A DNA stretch of 64,000 nt from Acidobacteriota bacterium (GTDB lineage Bacteria > Acidobacteriota > Vicinamibacteria > Vicinamibacterales > CAVVIG01). The position numbers and the translations under genes are program-made. The stretch spans positions 1 through 64,000 of the forward strand of contig JAOBWF010000245.1 in assembly GCA_025463215.1 (NCBI GenBank), written 5' to 3'. The notes below the pieces were generated by a model, which worked only from the letters and a program-made list of their open reading frames with translations, made no database searches and was not told the origin of the DNA. This document shows positions 2,229 to 20,097 of the stretch, piece after piece (position 1 is the first letter of the stretch; each line of letters opens with the position of its first letter).

Positions 2229-3374
2229 TTACCCGCGGCGGGCGATCCGCGCCCGCCGTTCGATCGCCTGCCGGTAGGCGTCGTAGACGCGATGTGCGGT
2301 GTCGCTCCACCGGAAGGCGTGCGCCCGTGCGATTCCCTTTGCCGCGCATTCCGCCGCCAGCCCGTCGTCGTCGACCATGCGGGCGATCGCGTCCGCGATG
2401 TCGCCGGGCCGATCCGGATCGACCAGCAGCCCCGCGCCACCGAGCACCTCGGGCAGCGAGCCGCGATTGGCCGCAACCACGGGAACGCCGAGCGTCATCG
2501 CTTCGAGGACCGGCAGGCCGAAACCTTCGTCGAAGGACGGCTGCACCAGGACACGCGCCCCGGCGTACAGCGCGCGGCGGGCGTTGGCGTCGATGTAGCC
2601 GAGATGGCGAACCTTGCCCGACAACGGCGGCCGGCCGATCCGATCCAGCCATGATCTCGCCTCGGCGGTTGCCCGTCCCGCAAGCACGAGCTCAGGCACG
2701 GGGCGGCGGGCGGCGCTGGCCGCCAGCTGCTCGTAAGCGTCGAGCAGTCCGCCGACGTTCTTGCGCGGCTCGAGCGTGCCGAAGAACAACACATAGCCGT
2801 TTGTCGGCGCGGCGCCGCGCGGCGTCCAGTCGGGCGCGCCGGGTGGACAGACCGCCATGCGATCGCGGGGCAGGCCGAGAGTCCGTTCGACTTCGCTTGC
2901 GGTGTACGCGGACGGCACCAGGACCGCGTCCGCGCGGTGCGCGTGTTCGCGGGCCAGCGCCGGATAGTCGCGCCGGATTTCGGCCCGGGTCCGCTCCGGA
3001 TGAGTCAAAAAGTTCACATCGTGAATGGTGATCACTTGCGCCGCCGCGCGCGCGGGCATCAGCAGCGGATGCAGCGAATGCACGACGTCGTAGGCGCCGC
3101 CGGCCAACGTCTCGGCGGCGGGCCAGGCGAGCCGATGCCACGCGAAATTGAGCACGCGCACCGGCACCCGGCAATCGACGCACGCCGCCCCGGCGAGATC
3201 CGGCGGCTCGGCCAGGCGATCCTTCCACGAGCTCGAGAACAACGTCAGCTCCAGGGCGCGCGGGGTCCCGTTGGGCGGATACGCGGCCAGCAGGGCCGCC
3301 GCCAACTGGTGCGTGTACTCGCCTATTCCGCTGCGTTCGCGGAGCGCCGGCCGGTAATCGATTAGGACCCGCAC
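2229..3374 (-). CDS. Glycosyltransferase family 4 (GT-B), first gene of the operon
   Basis: A 381-residue GT-B transferase starting MRVLIDYRPALRERSGIGEYT, with ITIHDVNFLTHPE in the N-terminal domain and PSFDEGFGLPVLEAM (E-x7-E) in the C-terminal donor-binding domain. It ends four bases before the next GT gene. It begins only 37 bp from ugd on the other strand, so the polysaccharide transferases and the enzyme making UDP-glucuronate share a divergent control region. Probably builds an exopolysaccharide or O-antigen-like glycan at the cytoplasmic face of the inner membrane. Confidence 0.9.
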   Translation of the reverse strand: MRVLIDYRPALRERSGIGEYTHQLAAALLAAYPPNGTPRALELTLFSSSWKDRLAEPPDLAGAACVDCRVPVRVLNFAWHRLAWPAAETLAGGAYDVVHSLHPLLMPARAAAQVITIHDVNFLTHPERTRAEIRRDYPALAREHAHRADAVLVPSAYTASEVERTLGLPRDRMAVCPPGAPDWTPRGAAPTNGYVLFFGTLEPRKNVGGLLDAYEQLAASAARRPVPELVLAGRATAEARSWLDRIGRPPLSGKVRHLGYIDANARRALYAGARVLVQPSFDEGFGLPVLEAMTLGVPVVAANRGSLPEVLGGAGLLVDPDRPGDIADAIARMVDDDGLAAECAAKGIARAHAFRWSDTAHRVYDAYRQAIERRARIARRG

Positions 3375-3403
3375 TTGTTTAAGTCGTTTCGAGACAGTAT
3401 CTT
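3375..3403 (+). promoter_or_regulatory. Sigma-70-like promoter for ugd, near-leaderless
   Basis: TTGTTT (3375-3380), a 17-bp spacer, then TATCTT (3398-3403). Transcription would start near 3410, two bases before the ATG at 3412, so the mRNA would be leaderless or nearly so. No Shine-Dalgarno sequence is visible ahead of ugd, which agrees with this. Confidence 0.45.
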
Positions 3404-3411
3404 ATTGTGAA

Positions 3412-4713
3412 ATGAAGATTGCTGTCGTCGGGTCGGGTTATGTCGGACTTGTGCTCGGTGCGTGCCTCGCTGAAAACGGCAATACCGTCGCATGCGTCGA
3501 TAAGGACGAGTCGAAAGTCGCCACGCTCAAGGCCGGCCGGATGCCCATCTACGAGCCCGGGCTCGAAGAAATGGTCGTCCGCAACCAGCATGAAGAGCGG
3601 TTGACCTTCACCACCGACCTGGCGACATCGATACGCGCGTCGGCGATCGTCTTCATCGCGGTCGGCACGCCGCAAGGCGAGGACGGCGCCGCCGATCTTC
3701 AGCACGTGCTCGCCGTCGCCAAGGCGATCGGCCGGGCGATGAACAAGTACACCGTCGTCGTCGACAAGAGCACGGTCCCGGTCGGCACCGCCAAGCGGGT
3801 GCGCGACACGATCGCGGCCGAGACGACGCAGCCGTTCAGCGTGGTCAGCAACCCGGAGTTCCTGAAGCAAGGCGCGGCGATTGAAGACTTCATGAAGCCG
3901 GATCGCGTCGTCATCGGCATCGAAGAGCGCGATGAGCGCGCGGCGGTCCTGATGAAGGAGCTCTACGGACCGTTCACCCGCACCGGCGCGCCGATCCTGA
4001 CGATGAGCACGGAGAGCGCCGAGCTGTGCAAGTACGCCGCGAACTCGATTCTGGCGACGCGGATCTCGTTCATGAACGAGATCGCGAACGTCTGCGAGCT
4101 GGTCGGCGCCGACGTCGATCACGTGCGCAAGGCGATCGGATCCGATCGGCGCATCGGCACGTCGTTTCTGTTTCCCGGCGTCGGCTACGGCGGCAGCTGC
4201 TTTCCCAAAGACACGCAGGCGTTGCTCAAGTCGGCCGAGGACAAGGGCTACGACTTCAAGATTCTGCGCGCGGTCGAAGAGGTCAACGACCGCCAGAAGG
4301 AGCGGATGGTCGACAAGATCGCGGCGCATTTCCCCGATCTGCGCGGCCGGACGATGGCGATCTGGGGCCTGGCGTTCAAGCCGCGTACTGACGACATGCG
4401 CGAGGCCCCGGCGATCCCGATCATCGAACGGCTGCTGGCGTGCGGTGTCACGGTGAAGGCGTACGACCCGGCGGCGGGACCGGTGGCGCGCGGCATCTTC
4501 GGCGATCGCATCGCCCTCTGTGAGAAGAGCTACGACGCGCTTGCCGGTGCCGACGCCCTCGCCGTCGTCACCGAGTGGAACGAGTTCCGCGAGCCGGACT
4601 TTGCCAAGATGCAGTCACTGATGAAGTCACCGGTCGTCTTCGACGGCCGCAACATCTATTCGCCCGAGCACATGCGCGCGCTCGGCTTCACCTATTTTTC
4701 CATTGGCCGCTAA
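3412..4713 (+). CDS. ugd: UDP-glucose 6-dehydrogenase
   Basis: Oxidises UDP-glucose to UDP-glucuronate with two NAD+, supplying acidic sugar for polysaccharides. The 433 residues match the usual length. The Rossmann motif VVGSGYVGL is at the N-terminus, STVPVGT lies in the NAD domain, and the catalytic cysteine is in GYGGSCFPKD near residue 263. The C-terminal UDP-binding domain contains GLAFKPRTDDMREAP. It is divergent from the GT operon and overlaps the galE start by 11 bases, so the two are probably co-expressed. Confidence 0.96.
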   Translation: MKIAVVGSGYVGLVLGACLAENGNTVACVDKDESKVATLKAGRMPIYEPGLEEMVVRNQHEERLTFTTDLATSIRASAIVFIAVGTPQGEDGAADLQHVLAVAKAIGRAMNKYTVVVDKSTVPVGTAKRVRDTIAAETTQPFSVVSNPEFLKQGAAIEDFMKPDRVVIGIEERDERAAVLMKELYGPFTRTGAPILTMSTESAELCKYAANSILATRISFMNEIANVCELVGADVDHVRKAIGSDRRIGTSFLFPGVGYGGSCFPKDTQALLKSAEDKGYDFKILRAVEEVNDRQKERMVDKIAAHFPDLRGRTMAIWGLAFKPRTDDMREAPAIPIIERLLACGVTVKAYDPAAGPVARGIFGDRIALCEKSYDALAGADALAVVTEWNEFREPDFAKMQSLMKSPVVFDGRNIYSPEHMRALGFTYFSIGR

Positions 4714-5704
4714 TCCACGTGCCGTTCTGGTGACCGGCGGGGCCGGGTACATCGGCAGCCATGCGGCGAAAGGCCTGCAGCGCGCCGGCTACCGCGTCGT
4801 CGTGCTCGACAATCTGCAGGCCGGCCACCGCGCCGCGGCGAAGTTCGGCGAACTGGTCGAAGCCGATATCACCGACACCGCGGCGGTGCGTGAGGCCTTG
4901 CGCCGCCACGAGATCTTCGGGGTCATGCACTTCGCGGCGTTCCTCGACGTCGGCGAGTCGGTGCGCGAGCCCGCGAAGTACTACCGCAATAACGTCGGCG
5001 GCGCGCTCAGCGTGCTCGAGGCGATGGCGGCCGAGTCGGTCAAGCACTTCGTGTTCTCGTCGACCTGCGCGACCTACGGCGAGCCGCTCGAAACGCCGAT
5101 CGCCGAAACGCACCCGCAGAATCCGATCAACAGCTACGGCGAATCGAAGCTGGCGGTCGAGCGTGCGCTGCCGCACTTCGCGACCGCCTACGGGCTGCGC
5201 TACGTCGCGCTGCGCTACTTCAATGCGTCGGGCGCCGATCCCGACGGCGAGATCGGCGAGGATCATTCGCCGGAGATCCATCTCATCCCGCGGGCGATCG
5301 AAGCGGCGACCGGCGGCCGCGGCCTGCAGGTGTTCGGCGACGACTATCCGACCCCGGACGGCACCTGCCTGCGCGACTACATTCACGTCACGGATCTCGC
5401 CGACGCGCACGTCAAGGCGCTGGAGTCGATCGCGAGCGATGGACCGTCCACGGCGTACAACCTTGGCACCGGGCGGCCGCATTCGGTGCGCGAAGTGATC
5501 GACACGGTCGCGCGGGTCACGGGGCGGCCGGTGCCGTGGACGCTGGCGCCGCGGCGGCCCGGCGATCCCGCCGTGCTCTACGCCGCGCCCGACAAGGCGC
5601 GGCGCGCGCTGCAGTGGACGCCGAAGCTCGGCGACCTCGAGACGATCGTTCGCACCGCCTGGGACTGGCACCGCACCCATCCCAACGGCTATGACCGCAA
5701 GTAG
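4703..5704 (+). CDS. galE: UDP-glucose 4-epimerase
   Basis: Interconverts UDP-glucose and UDP-galactose (or the uronates). An extended SDR of 333 residues: NAD motif TGGAGYIGSH, substrate loop SSTCATYG, catalytic YGESK and the RYFNASGADPDGEIGE block. The start is taken as a TTG at 4703, inside the end of ugd. The next in-frame candidate (GTG 4730) would cut into the first beta strand. With ugd and the transferases it forms a nucleotide-sugar supply unit. Confidence 0.95.
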   Translation: MAANPRAVLVTGGAGYIGSHAAKGLQRAGYRVVVLDNLQAGHRAAAKFGELVEADITDTAAVREALRRHEIFGVMHFAAFLDVGESVREPAKYYRNNVGGALSVLEAMAAESVKHFVFSSTCATYGEPLETPIAETHPQNPINSYGESKLAVERALPHFATAYGLRYVALRYFNASGADPDGEIGEDHSPEIHLIPRAIEAATGGRGLQVFGDDYPTPDGTCLRDYIHVTDLADAHVKALESIASDGPSTAYNLGTGRPHSVREVIDTVARVTGRPVPWTLAPRRPGDPAVLYAAPDKARRALQWTPKLGDLETIVRTAWDWHRTHPNGYDRK

Positions 5705-15063: not shown

Positions 15064-16581
15064 ATGTCCCGTAAATCGCCCTCTGTCGTGCTCGTCGGCC
15101 GCCCCAACGTCGGCAAGTCCACCCTGTTCAACCGGATGACCGGCAGCCGCCGCGCGATCGTCAATCCGATGGCCGGTACCACGCGCGACGCGCTCGCCCG
15201 CCCGGTCGTCTGGCGCGGCACGTCCTTCCAACTGTTCGATACGGGAGGGTTATACGGCGAGAGTCAGGACCCTCTGCACGAGCTGGTCGTCACCCAGGGG
15301 CAGCGCGCCATCGTCGGCGCCGATCTGCTGGTGCTGCTCGTCGACGGCCGCGAGGGGCTGATCCCCGGCGACGAGCGGATTGCGCGCGAGCTGCGCGAAA
15401 CCGGCATCCCGGTGATCCTGGCGATCAACAAGACCGACGACAAGCGCTCGCAGAAGTCGGCGATGGAATTCTTTCAGCTCGGCTTTGACCCCGTGACCGA
15501 GATCTCCGCCGAGCACGGCGCCGGCGTCGCCGAGCTGCTCGACGAGATTGTGTCCCGCGTGAAGGGGACGGCCCCCGCCGAGGGCTCTGGGCTCAAGGCG
15601 CAGGACTCGGAAGAACGCGCTCAGGCCCCAGCCGTCAGCTCTGACGTGGCCGACGTCGAGACGCGGTTTGCGATCGTCGGTCGGCCGAATGTCGGCAAGT
15701 CTTCGCTGGTGAACCGGCTGCTGCGGACCGAGCGCGTGCTCGTCAGCGACATGCCGGGGACGACGCGCGATGCGATCGATTCGCCGCTGCTGTGGCACCG
15801 ACGTCATTTCCGGATCATCGACACCGCCGGCATGCGGCGGCCGGGGCGCGTCGCCGGCGGCGGCAAAGTCGAGATGGTCAGCGTCTCGCTCGCCAAGGAG
15901 TCGATCGCCAACGCCGACGTCGTCGCGCTCGTGATCGACGCGAGCACCGGCGCCTCGGATCAGGATGCGGCAATCGGCGGGGAAGCCGACCGCGCCGGGC
16001 GCGGCATCGTGATCATCGTCAACAAGTGGGATCTCGTGAAGACCGAGGATCACACCTTCGTCCAGCGCTTCGACGACAAGCTGCGCCAGGGGATGCGCTT
16101 CCTCGACTTCGCGCCGATCCTCCACATCTCCGCGCTCACCGGCGAGCGGACGACGAAGGTGCTCGAGACCATGGACAAGGTGGCGGCCGCGCGGCGGGTC
16201 CGCGTGCCGACGCCGGCGCTCAACAAGTTCATCGAGAAGGTGACCGCGGCAAACCCGCCCGTCAGCCCAGGACGCAAGCACGTGCGCATCATGTACGCCG
16301 CGCAGACCGGCGTCGCACCGCCGTCGTTCCTCTTTTTCACCAACGTCGCGACGACGTTCCATTTCTCGTACGAGCGGTTTCTGATCAACAAGCTGCGCGA
16401 GGAATTCGGGTTCCTCGGCTCGCCGATCCGCATCCAGGTGCGCCGCCGGGATCGGAACACGAACGTCGGCGGCACTCGCAAGTCGAAGCCGGTGCGCCAC
16501 GGGGCGAAGAAGAACACGGTGGCGAAGGAGCGCAAGGATCGCCGCGCCCGCAAGAACCGGCGCGACAAGAAAGAACGCTGA
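15064..16581 (+). CDS. der: Ribosome-assembly GTPase Der (EngA)
   Basis: A tandem GTPase for 50S subunit maturation, 505 residues. G domain 1: GRPNVGKST (12-20), DTGG, NKTD. G domain 2: GRPNVGKSS near residue 205, DTAGM, NKWD. A KH-like C-terminal domain follows and the protein ends in a long Lys/Arg-rich tail, expected for rRNA contact. The linker between the G domains is an unusually long polar stretch (about residues 170-200). Divergent from the HU gene. Confidence 0.95.
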   Translation: MSRKSPSVVLVGRPNVGKSTLFNRMTGSRRAIVNPMAGTTRDALARPVVWRGTSFQLFDTGGLYGESQDPLHELVVTQGQRAIVGADLLVLLVDGREGLIPGDERIARELRETGIPVILAINKTDDKRSQKSAMEFFQLGFDPVTEISAEHGAGVAELLDEIVSRVKGTAPAEGSGLKAQDSEERAQAPAVSSDVADVETRFAIVGRPNVGKSSLVNRLLRTERVLVSDMPGTTRDAIDSPLLWHRRHFRIIDTAGMRRPGRVAGGGKVEMVSVSLAKESIANADVVALVIDASTGASDQDAAIGGEADRAGRGIVIIVNKWDLVKTEDHTFVQRFDDKLRQGMRFLDFAPILHISALTGERTTKVLETMDKVAAARRVRVPTPALNKFIEKVTAANPPVSPGRKHVRIMYAAQTGVAPPSFLFFTNVATTFHFSYERFLINKLREEFGFLGSPIRIQVRRRDRNTNVGGTRKSKPVRHGAKKNTVAKERKDRRARKNRRDKKER

Positions 16582-16605
16582 TATACTCGAAAACGCCCAA
16601 GTTCT

Positions 16606-16722
16606 GCGCCACTCGCAGGACGCGGGGGACCCAAGCACGTGGGGCGTAGCGAGATCGTCTCGCCGGACACTTCCGAGTCCGAGCCCGTCAGCTAACCCCG
16701 CCGGCGTCAGACGGAAGGCTCG
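16606..16722 (+). ncRNA. c-di-AMP riboswitch (ydaO-yuaA type)
   Basis: The 5' leader of the permease gene contains the conserved blocks of this class in order: GGGGGACCCA (16624-16633), TGGGGCG, CCGGACAC, GAGCCCGTCAGCTAACCCCG (16681-16700), then GGCGTC. Known members bind c-di-AMP and turn expression off, typically ahead of potassium or osmolyte transport genes. Boundaries are approximate, and no separate terminator hairpin is obvious, so control may act on translation. Confidence 0.88.
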
Positions 16723-16724
16723 TT

Positions 16725-18929
16725 GTGTCCACCACGCCGCTCGCTCGCGACGGACGCGTCCGCGTTGTCGTCGCCACCACGGTTCTCCTCTCGTTCATCT
16801 CGTTCTGGCGCGCGGCCGCCATCGTGCTCGCGGATCTCGGATCCACCGCGTTCTACGTCGGCGGCATCGTCGAGCAGGCGGTGGGCAAGTCGGCGCCGTG
16901 GTTCATTCTCGGCGTGATGATCTTCTCCTACGCGGTGCGCGCGCTCTACATCGAGAGCTCGGCGATGTTCGTGCGCGGCGGCGTCTACCGCGTCGTCAAA
17001 GAGGCGATGGGCGGCACGCTGGCGAAGCTCTCGGTCTCGGCGCTGCTGTTCGACTACATCCTGACCGGGCCGATCAGCGGCGTGTCGGCCGGCAGCTACA
17101 TCGCCGGCCTGATCAACGACATCCTGACCCGCGCCGGCACCTCGGCGCGGATTCCGACCGCGGCGACCGCGGCGTTCATCGCGATTCTCATCACCGGCTA
17201 TTTCTGGTGGCGCAACACGCGCGGCATCCACGAGAGCAGCGACGATGCGATGACGATCATGAAGATCGCGACGGTCATGGTCGTCCTGCTGATCGGCTGG
17301 TGCACGCTGACGCTGGTGCACCGCGGCGGCACGCTGCCGCCGCTCCCGAGCCTCGGCACGATCCGGTTCTCGGACGAGTCCCTCGGGTGGTTGAAGGGCA
17401 CGGTGTGGCCGACGTTCACCGCGATCGCGATCCTGGTCGGCTTCGGGCACTCGATCCTGGCGATGAGCGGCGAGGAATCGCTGGCGCAGGTCTACCGTGA
17501 GATCGAGGTGCCGAAGGTCAAGAACCTGCAGCGCGCCGGCATGGTGATCTTCATCTACAGCCTGGTGTTCACCGGGCTGGTCAGCTTCTTCGCCGTGGCG
17601 ATCATTCCGGACGCGGTGCGGCCGCAGTATTACGACAACCTGATTTCGGGGCTGGCCATGCACGTCGTCGGACCGATCTCGGTGCGGCTGGTGTTTCAGG
17701 CCGTCGTCGTGATTGTCGGGTTCCTGATGCTGGCGGGCGCGGTCAACACCGCGATCGTCGGCTCGAACGGCGTGCTGAACCGCGTCTCTGAAGACGGCGT
17801 CCTGACCGAGTGGTTCCGCAAGCCGCATCGCCGCTTCGGCACCACCTACCGCCTGATCAACATGATCGCGATCCTGCAGATCGCGACGATCGTGATCAGC
17901 CGCGGCAATGTGATCGTGCTCGGCGAGGCGTACGCCTTCGGCGTGGTGTGGAGCTTCGCGTTCAACGCGCTCGCGGTGCTGGTGCTGCGCTACAAGCGGC
18001 CGGACATCGAGCGCGGCTGGAAGGTGCCGTTGAACGTCCGCATCGGCGGCCGCGAGCTGCCGATCGGCGTCGGGCTGATCGCGGTCGTGCTGTTCACGTG
18101 CGCGGTGATCAACCTGTTCACGAAGGAGACCGCGACGATCTCGGGCCTGCTGTTCACCGGCGGCTTCTTCGTGATCTTCGTGGTGTCGGAGCGGATCACG
18201 GCGCGGCAGAAGGCGTCGGGATCAGGAAAGCTGGATCAGTTCCAGCTGACGGCGGAGCCGGAAGTCGGCATCGCCGCGTTGAACAGCCGGCCGGGCGCGG
18301 TGCTGGTGCCGGTGCGCGACTACAACACCCTGGCGCAGCTGGACTGGGTCGTCGGCCATACGCCGCCGGGACGCGACGTCGTCGTCCTCACGATCCGGCT
18401 GCTGCGCGGGCCCGACGGCAGCTCGCACGGTCTCGAGGCGGACGAGCTGTTCACCGATTACGAGCAGACGCTGTTCACGAAGGTGGTGGCGATCGCGGAG
18501 CGTCACGGGCGGGGCGTCAAGCTGCTGGTGCTGCCGGCGACCAATATCTTCGACGCGGTGGCGCAGACGGCGGTCACCCTCGAGGCGAGCGAGATCGTCG
18601 TCGGCGCATCCGCGGTGATCACGGCCGAGGAGCAGGCGCACCAGATGGGGGATGCCTGGGACCGGACGCCGCACGAGCGCTCGCTGGCCACGCAGTTCGT
18701 GATCCATTCGGCCGACCGCCAGGTGCAGACATTCGCGCTGGGCGCGCACGCGCCGAACCTGCGGGCGGAGGACGTCGAGCGGATCCACGCGCTGTGGGTC
18801 GAAGCGGTGAAGGCCGCCGGCCCGCAGGTCCATCACCGCGATGTCGTCGTCGCCGCGCTCGACAGTCTCGAAGGAGAGCTGCGCGATCATCGCGACAAGG
18901 CGATCGCGCGCTTTCCGCGCGCGGTGTAG
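16725..18929 (+). CDS. KimA-like APC-superfamily permease with C-terminal USP-like domain
   Basis: Probable potassium (or amino acid) importer of 734 residues. About 12 hydrophobic helices occupy residues 15-500, with the APC-type early helix LLSFISFWRAAAIVLADLG and YILTGPISGVSAGSYIAG. A soluble domain follows from about residue 515 (AVLVPVRDYN ... EASEIVVGAS), resembling the universal stress fold. The c-di-AMP riboswitch in its leader is the same control as B. subtilis kimA (ydaO), which favours K+ uptake. GTG start at 16725, right behind the aptamer. The substrate is inferred from the riboswitch. Confidence 0.85.
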   Translation: MSTTPLARDGRVRVVVATTVLLSFISFWRAAAIVLADLGSTAFYVGGIVEQAVGKSAPWFILGVMIFSYAVRALYIESSAMFVRGGVYRVVKEAMGGTLAKLSVSALLFDYILTGPISGVSAGSYIAGLINDILTRAGTSARIPTAATAAFIAILITGYFWWRNTRGIHESSDDAMTIMKIATVMVVLLIGWCTLTLVHRGGTLPPLPSLGTIRFSDESLGWLKGTVWPTFTAIAILVGFGHSILAMSGEESLAQVYREIEVPKVKNLQRAGMVIFIYSLVFTGLVSFFAVAIIPDAVRPQYYDNLISGLAMHVVGPISVRLVFQAVVVIVGFLMLAGAVNTAIVGSNGVLNRVSEDGVLTEWFRKPHRRFGTTYRLINMIAILQIATIVISRGNVIVLGEAYAFGVVWSFAFNALAVLVLRYKRPDIERGWKVPLNVRIGGRELPIGVGLIAVVLFTCAVINLFTKETATISGLLFTGGFFVIFVVSERITARQKASGSGKLDQFQLTAEPEVGIAALNSRPGAVLVPVRDYNTLAQLDWVVGHTPPGRDVVVLTIRLLRGPDGSSHGLEADELFTDYEQTLFTKVVAIAERHGRGVKLLVLPATNIFDAVAQTAVTLEASEIVVGASAVITAEEQAHQMGDAWDRTPHERSLATQFVIHSADRQVQTFALGAHAPNLRAEDVERIHALWVEAVKAAGPQVHHRDVVVAALDSLEGELRDHRDKAIARFPRAV

Positions 18930-20019: not shown

Positions 20020-20097
20020 CGGGACGTAGCGTAGCCTGGTTATCGCGCTTGACTGGGGGTCAAGAGATCGGGAGTTCGAATCTCCCCGTCCCGACCA
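20020..20097 (+). tRNA. tRNA-Pro (anticodon GGG)
   Basis: Folds as a full cloverleaf. Acceptor arm CGGGACG pairs with CGTCCCG; anticodon stem CTTGA/TCAAG closes a 7-base loop CTGGGGG with GGG at 34-36; the T-arm contains GTTCGAATC; discriminator A is followed by an encoded CCA. It lies 12 bp after the MerR gene, and everything downstream looks like accessory DNA. Confidence 0.96.

Follow-up and report, generated by a model that had tools for sequence, protein, structure and literature searches.

A predicted translational OFF switch for c-di-AMP before a KimA-related, probable potassium importer in an acidobacterium

The window, a stretch of 64,000 nucleotides from an Acidobacteriota bacterium, is part of a genome of 5.8 Mb in 441 contigs with a completeness of 87.9 % and a contamination of 7.2 %. 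The locus of interest presented the following features:

15064 to 16581, + strand: der (EngA) GTPase gene, the upstream neighbour (open reading frame and Pfam); its stop lies 2 nt before the Rfam match.
16582 to 16587, + strand: possible -10 box TATACT, read by eye; the TGA before it, as in an extended -10, overlaps the end of der.
16584 to 16721, + strand: c-di-AMP riboswitch aptamer RF00379 including its 3' tail (75.9 bits, E 7.6e-16).
16670 to 16675, + strand: aptamer loop CUUCCG, 5' strand of a pseudoknot, pairing with 16712 to 16717 (covariation).
16712 to 16717, + strand: tail CGGAAG, 3' strand of the pseudoknot and putative ribosome-binding site, 7 nt upstream of the start codon.
16725 to 18929, + strand: permease gene, 734 aa, GTG start (open reading frame, Pfam, predicted structure).
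16797 to 18158, + strand: membrane domain AA_permease_2, residues 25-478 (Pfam), with invariant D37, Y44, S248, E251 and Y403.
18240 to 18926, + strand: C-terminal USP-like cytoplasmic domain, beginning near residue 506 (model secondary structure, structural alignment with KimA).

A consensus promoter scan of the leader yielded no promoter at the TATACT site; judged by its letters, the box weakly suggests a transcript whose 5' end may coincide approximately with that of helix P1. A tRNA gene was present at window positions 20020-20094 (63.5 bits), and a tRNA gene also occurred 3' of the permease in the related loci L038 and L036.

A c-di-AMP riboswitch in the leader had been proposed in a sequence-only reading, whose start at 16606 falls within the aptamer. 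The covariance search with the ydaO-yuaA model that was proposed with it confirmed the assignment: cmscan matched RF00379 over the full model (1-134 of 134) on the plus strand with a score above the gathering cut-off of 38 bits, and this was the single match in the whole, 87.9 % complete genome. On the strength of this match the element upstream of the permease is a genuine c-di-AMP riboswitch, and from its sequence we infer that the aptamer binds the ligand. When the leader alone was folded by energy, its stability was not significant (z -1.1), and the minimum-energy structure departed from the native fold. Ligand-dependent, pseudoknotted RNAs can fail to show their native fold in free-energy folding. 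A helix at the start codon in the minimum-energy fold was discarded as a candidate element, its bases not being kept in relatives when compared by eye. A literature search by title and abstract, with the gene lists of Nelson 2013 and Block 2010 outside its scope, retrieved nothing on the permease family of the window or on c-di-AMP riboswitches in Acidobacteria.

The aptamer loop CUUCCG and the tail CGGAAG form six Watson-Crick pairs. Covariation was tested with 71 aptamers, 66 from a phylum sample and 5 from named contigs, by re-pairing loops and tails across sequences. Loops with their own tails had a mean pairing score of 5.92 versus 4.90 (sd 0.11) for the re-paired sets, and none of 2000 permutations reached the observed value; with one sequence per distinct loop (n = 39) the result was unchanged. 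The complementarity search used narrow windows, since wide windows over whole leaders gave spurious partners, also for the leader studied here. Co-changing loop and tail pairs included CUUCCG/CGGAAG, CUUCUUCG/CGAAGAAG, CCUUCACC/GGUGAGGG and CUUUCAA/UUGAAAG, while about one in nine of the 71 aptamers fitted poorly, with a pairing score below 5. In the crystallised ydaO sequence, for which PMC5393176 names a pseudoknot, loop and tail are by our reading of the same complementary kind. The loop-tail pseudoknot belongs to the known aptamer.

The distance from the pseudoknot to the gene distinguished the order of the organism. It was determined automatically to the first start codon of an open reading frame of at least 150 aa after the pseudoknot strand, a rule that may have picked wrong genes in some other orders. 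Fourteen of the 16 riboswitches of the own order had the start codon 3-9 nt past the pseudoknot strand, versus 1 of 40 with such a reading frame in other orders, where 10 further riboswitches lacked one. The exceptions in the own order were G028 with 44 nt and G261 with 2 nt in one frame, though its 610-aa frame starts at 6 nt. Within the own taxonomic family, an in-frame start within 8 nt followed 20 of 21 riboswitches (18 of 27 genomes). A ribosome-binding site that serves as pseudoknot strand is thus typical of the own order and rare in the other sampled orders of the phylum.

At high c-di-AMP the loop CUUCCG of the folded aptamer would capture the tail CGGAAG; the captured hexamer would be the ribosome-binding site for the GTG 7 nt further on, and the permease would not be made. 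As the captured strand is itself the putative ribosome-binding site, translation could be repressed directly, with no further expression platform. A review (PMC10907184) counts ydaO with the riboswitches in which the aptamer, once it has bound its ligand, docks on the ribosome-binding site, thus the docking principle is already known. The leader resembles the ydaO/yuaA leaders of RF00379 in its match over the full model, the loop-tail pseudoknot, a potassium-type transporter as target and a diadenylate cyclase (DAC) in the genome; it differs in that the 3' strand of the pseudoknot itself is the ribosome-binding site, with the start codon 7 nt on. Control by transcription termination or RNA stability, bypassing the ribosome-binding site, has precedents in the kdp riboswitch of B. 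thuringiensis, which acts by termination according to PMC6488665, and in the long spacers behind riboswitches in other orders of the phylum. For the present leader it is distinctly unlikely: only 7 nt separate pseudoknot and start codon, and a scan of the sequence from aptamer to start codon revealed nothing resembling a terminator. Judged from the sequence, c-di-AMP most likely represses permease translation directly.

The sequence-only reading had also implied c-di-AMP signalling in the organism, and at the level of gene presence this was borne out. A domain search of the rest of the genome returned two DAC-domain proteins rather than none. CdaA (269 aa) comprised CdaA_N and a DAC domain of 135-137 bits, and the gene for YbbR/CdaR followed directly downstream. 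The cdaA-cdaR locus adjoins folP-like and ftsH-like genes, both recognised by eye. The second, weaker DAC protein carried a DACNK sensor domain and was located on a 7.9-kb contig (L111:3068-3817, G000:C407); it could be a contamination of the bin. By its gene content, the organism is equipped for making c-di-AMP. Across the phylum sample of 297 genomes, RF00379 riboswitches were present in 53 and DAC matches in 233. A DAC match was found in 51 of the 53 riboswitch genomes versus 182 of the 244 others (Fisher p 1.7e-4, kinship ignored); the two riboswitch genomes without a DAC match were G226 (77 % complete) and G285 (98 % complete).

The permease was described beforehand as KimA-like. This description holds for the fold and for the residues of the potassium site, but not for close sequence kinship. 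Pfam assigned AA_permease_2 alone (183 bits, residues 25-478), NCBIfam added a weak match to TIGR00909 (63 bits, cut-off 556.8), and PF02705 (K_trans) was not matched at E<=1. In a phmmer search against the PDB no chain was obtained at E<=10, the KimA chains included, and a sequence profile of the permease matched solely amino-acid transporters in the PDB (E 0.0019). The profile-profile comparison of the window type of permease with the KimA type gave 98.1 % probability (E 8.8e-14, 459 columns). An AlphaFold2 model was built from 36 sequences (mean pLDDT 80.7, pTM 0.66). Its best structural matches were the KimA structures 8b71, 8b70 and 6s3k with Z scores of 42.1, 41.7 and 39.2 over 509-534 residues, and KimA also ranked first in Foldseek; amino-acid transporters came next (Z 30-37), matched essentially by their membrane domain. 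The rmsd of the whole KimA match was 16-17 A, thus the placement of the domains differs from KimA. For comparison, the KimA-type protein of the sister genome G116 matched 6s3k at 6e-166. Most named relatives of the permease came from metagenome assemblies of Acidobacteria, two with the label gp6; the organism is accordingly an Acidobacteriota, which we take to be Vicinamibacteria-like. The window permease is a cousin of KimA, not KimA itself, and its type constitutes an unnamed APC family that is presently matched only by an 'amino acid permease' model.

KimA (YdaO), the K+/H+ symporter of B. subtilis, shares with the window permease the riboswitch control, the APC fold with a USP-like cytosolic domain and the potassium-site positions Asp, Tyr, Thr, Glu and Tyr. 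It differs by the absent phmmer match, by Thr230, which is a serine in the window permease, and by the c-di-AMP pocket residues, which the latter lacks; moreover, sister genomes also contain true KimA orthologues under a riboswitch of their own. In five family members the riboswitch slot is taken by Kup (K_trans), but the window protein has no PF02705 match. The eukaryotic cotransporters NKCC, NCC and KCC likewise combine an APC fold with a USP-like C-terminal domain and were, together with KimA, among the first Foldseek matches; their identity to the window permease is only 8-14 %, and chloride coupling is not indicated.

Potassium uptake by KimA requires D36, Y43 and E233 according to PMC6994465; T121 and Y377 line the site. 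A global profile alignment placed D37 of the window permease on D36, Y44 on Y43, T114 on T121, E251 on E233 and Y403 on Y377; KimA T230 corresponded to S248; with this exchange of T for S, all six potassium and proton residues of KimA have a counterpart. D37, Y44, S248, E251 and Y403 were invariant in 36 of 36 relatives, D110 and T114 nearly so. In TM1 the global alignment is weak alone, and MAFFT addition did not place TM1 of KimA; the assignment of D37 and Y44 rests on the profile alignment together with equal spacing. The own genome had 13 APC matches, ten with loci, including the window permease and a window-type paralog on contig C340; eight others were read and three were not. None of these eight contained the set of potassium-site residues, which was present in the C340 paralog, and several of them had a glycine-rich TM1, which the window protein lacks.

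The genes behind the riboswitches pointed in the same direction. Each of the 21 riboswitches of the own family stands before a window-type permease (9), KimA (7) or Kup (5); G116 and G311 possess the window type and KimA, each with its own riboswitch, and G269 the window type and Kup. A riboswitch slot filled only by these three argues for potassium uptake, as guilt by association. In other families of the phylum, the open reading frames after the riboswitch included non-transport genes, for D-Ala-D-Ala ligase and Band-7 proteins, and also genes for solute-binding proteins (L094, L106, L066, L062, L086, L079), thus the slot is not exclusively a potassium slot phylum-wide. KdpD-like DUF4118 kinases adjoined window-type permeases at 4 of 47 loci (L142, L045, L039, L033), a count that excludes L036, where only the kinase part matched, and that may miss more because many of the loci had a flank of 1.5 kb. 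KdpA was not found in the own genome (87.9 % complete).

Some glutamate and osmolyte transporters elsewhere are under c-di-AMP control. The permease might be a similar case, a transporter of amino acids or osmolytes under incidental control of this kind, in line with its Pfam label, the TIGR00909 match (63 of 556.8 bits) and the amino-acid transporters matched by its profile in the PDB. The invariance of the potassium-site residues in all 36 relatives, their absence as a set from the eight paralogs, the slot shared in the own family only with KimA and Kup, and the neighbouring KdpD-like kinases speak against it and make it improbable. On the same sequence evidence, potassium is the substrate that the permease most likely imports.

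An extra USP-like domain at the C-terminus had been noticed from the sequence, with the suggestion that it adds a second level of nucleotide sensing on the protein. The tail had no Pfam or NCBIfam match. In the AlphaFold2 model strands and helices alternate from residue 506, with pLDDT values mostly of 80-90 in the tail blocks, and KimA structures align to the model through residues 31-666, thus the USP-like description holds at the fold level, as far as the model goes. A second c-di-AMP sensor did not find such support. The cytosolic domain of KimA, the best structural match, binds c-di-AMP in a pocket with Arg337 and His579-Asn580-Gln581-Ser582, as given in PMC10284832. The HNQ(S/T) motif occurred in none of 36 members of the window-type family and HNQ in all eight KimA-type proteins of Acidobacteriota; the position of Arg337 is D, E, S or P in window-type relatives. 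The c-di-AMP motifs of KdpD, SxS-x20-FTAxY and (A/G/C)xSxSx2N taken from PMC8214093, were each present in 0 of 36, and the ATP-binding USP motif G-x2-G-x9-G(S/T) likewise in 0 of 36 relatives. The profile alignment of the tail with the KimA tail was not significant (probability 0.6 %).

An evolutionary comparison provided the stronger test. The window-type permease was present in 49 of 297 genomes; 21 of these 49 had no DAC match, including 19 of 25 in family f17. Conservation of the tail was compared for the 27 of 36 aligned rows with a genome handle, 6 sequences from genomes without and 21 from genomes with a DAC match. Tail identities were 0.643 versus 0.607 at a membrane-domain identity of 0.7-0.8 and 0.804 versus 0.795 at 0.8-0.9, values from few pairs with kinship ignored. 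The tail is thus equally constrained without DAC and serves a function for which DAC-made c-di-AMP is dispensable; a c-di-AMP source other than DAC is possible in the genomes without a match. A KimA-like inhibition of the transporter by c-di-AMP bound to the tail, as a layer added to that of the riboswitch, would be suggested by the binding to the KimA domain, by the invariant G627, which we read as a possible equivalent of the ribose-contacting glycine of USPs described in PMC8214093, and by KupB, which according to PMC10284832 is inhibited by c-di-AMP without an Arg337, so that missing contacts do not exclude binding. With the motifs absent and the tail constrained also without DAC, the data do not support that the protein itself carries a second sensor for c-di-AMP: the tail is unlikely, on its sequence, to bind c-di-AMP, and inhibition in the manner of KimA has a low probability. 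The tail may bind another nucleotide or ligand.

In characterised bacteria c-di-AMP signals ample potassium. The riboswitch, about 135 nt between der and the permease gene, would act as a translational OFF switch, and the permease, a divergent KimA relative, would most likely import potassium; since the signal reports ample potassium and the switch represses an importer, c-di-AMP repression would close a negative feedback loop. Which way the switch acts, that it does so at translation and that the cargo is potassium are deductions. As a whole, a translational OFF switch before a KimA-related probable potassium importer is the explanation we hold with good confidence, on the sequence data presented.

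The presence of the riboswitch varied among close relatives, as if by gain and loss. In L038 the permease is 90 % identical and der is again the neighbour, the stop of der is directly followed by the permease start, and there is no riboswitch; its genome lacks any RF00379 match and has kept DAC. The riboswitch was also absent from G305 of the same genus, which may be the same assembly as L038, and from L034 (permease 80 % identical). In L033 two permeases stand in tandem with a riboswitch before the second only, and a BRC1 genome (L042) had a riboswitch of 84.2 bits upstream of a window-type permease. Phylum-wide, no association of riboswitch and permease was observed (9 of 49 permease genomes with a riboswitch versus 44 of 248 others), thus the link is lineage-specific. 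In a further, joint reading two nucleotides would control one potassium importer, c-di-AMP on the RNA and some other ligand, possibly ATP or ADP by analogy with KCC cotransporters, on the tail. Of the two layers that of the tail would be the older, as it persists in Acidobacteriota that lack a recognised diadenylate cyclase, and the riboswitch would have been gained and lost on top of it. We regard this joint reading, which includes a new APC potassium family, as tentative and rather doubtful; if true, the window type would stand next to KimA and Kup as a separate APC family of potassium transporters.

Related architectures were encountered in the same survey. The C340 paralog (L142:3453-7031, G000:C340:22952-26530) is a single open reading frame of 1192 aa with an APC permease (147 bits), a USP-like part and a BBP2 outer-membrane beta-barrel (140 bits); a signal-peptide-like stretch lies between the parts and a KdpD-like kinase adjoins, and the frame is either a fusion or the result of a missing stop. 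In L143:2881-6384 and L144:1802-5332 (1167 and 1176 aa) a divergent permease with a USP-like part is joined in one protein with an entire MgtE-type transporter (MgtE_N, CBS, MgtE); the potassium-site residues of TM1 were not recognisable in these fusions. L043 contains a split permease behind a riboswitch, with a membrane frame of 525 aa (2472-4046) and a tail frame of 256 aa (4066-4833), by frameshift or as separate genes. Riboswitch-controlled membrane-type proteins with the motifs SSCYGPDEA and GVDYFSTL (L091:811-2778, L083:803-2764 and relatives) had no Pfam or NCBIfam match and are possibly more unnamed APC potassium transporters.

The RNA is of a known class, with a lineage-typical, very compact arrangement for the predicted repression, and its target is a distinct and probable potassium importer. 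An APC family labelled 'amino acid permease' is now pointed to as probable potassium importers. The compactness of the switch makes the mechanism testable by one compensatory pair of mutations, and the relative without riboswitch, together with the genomes without a recognised cyclase, offers a natural experiment on the reason for the RNA layer. Vicinamibacteria-like Acidobacteriota are abundant in soil and have seen little experimental work; the predicted switch would extend the control of potassium by c-di-AMP to this group.
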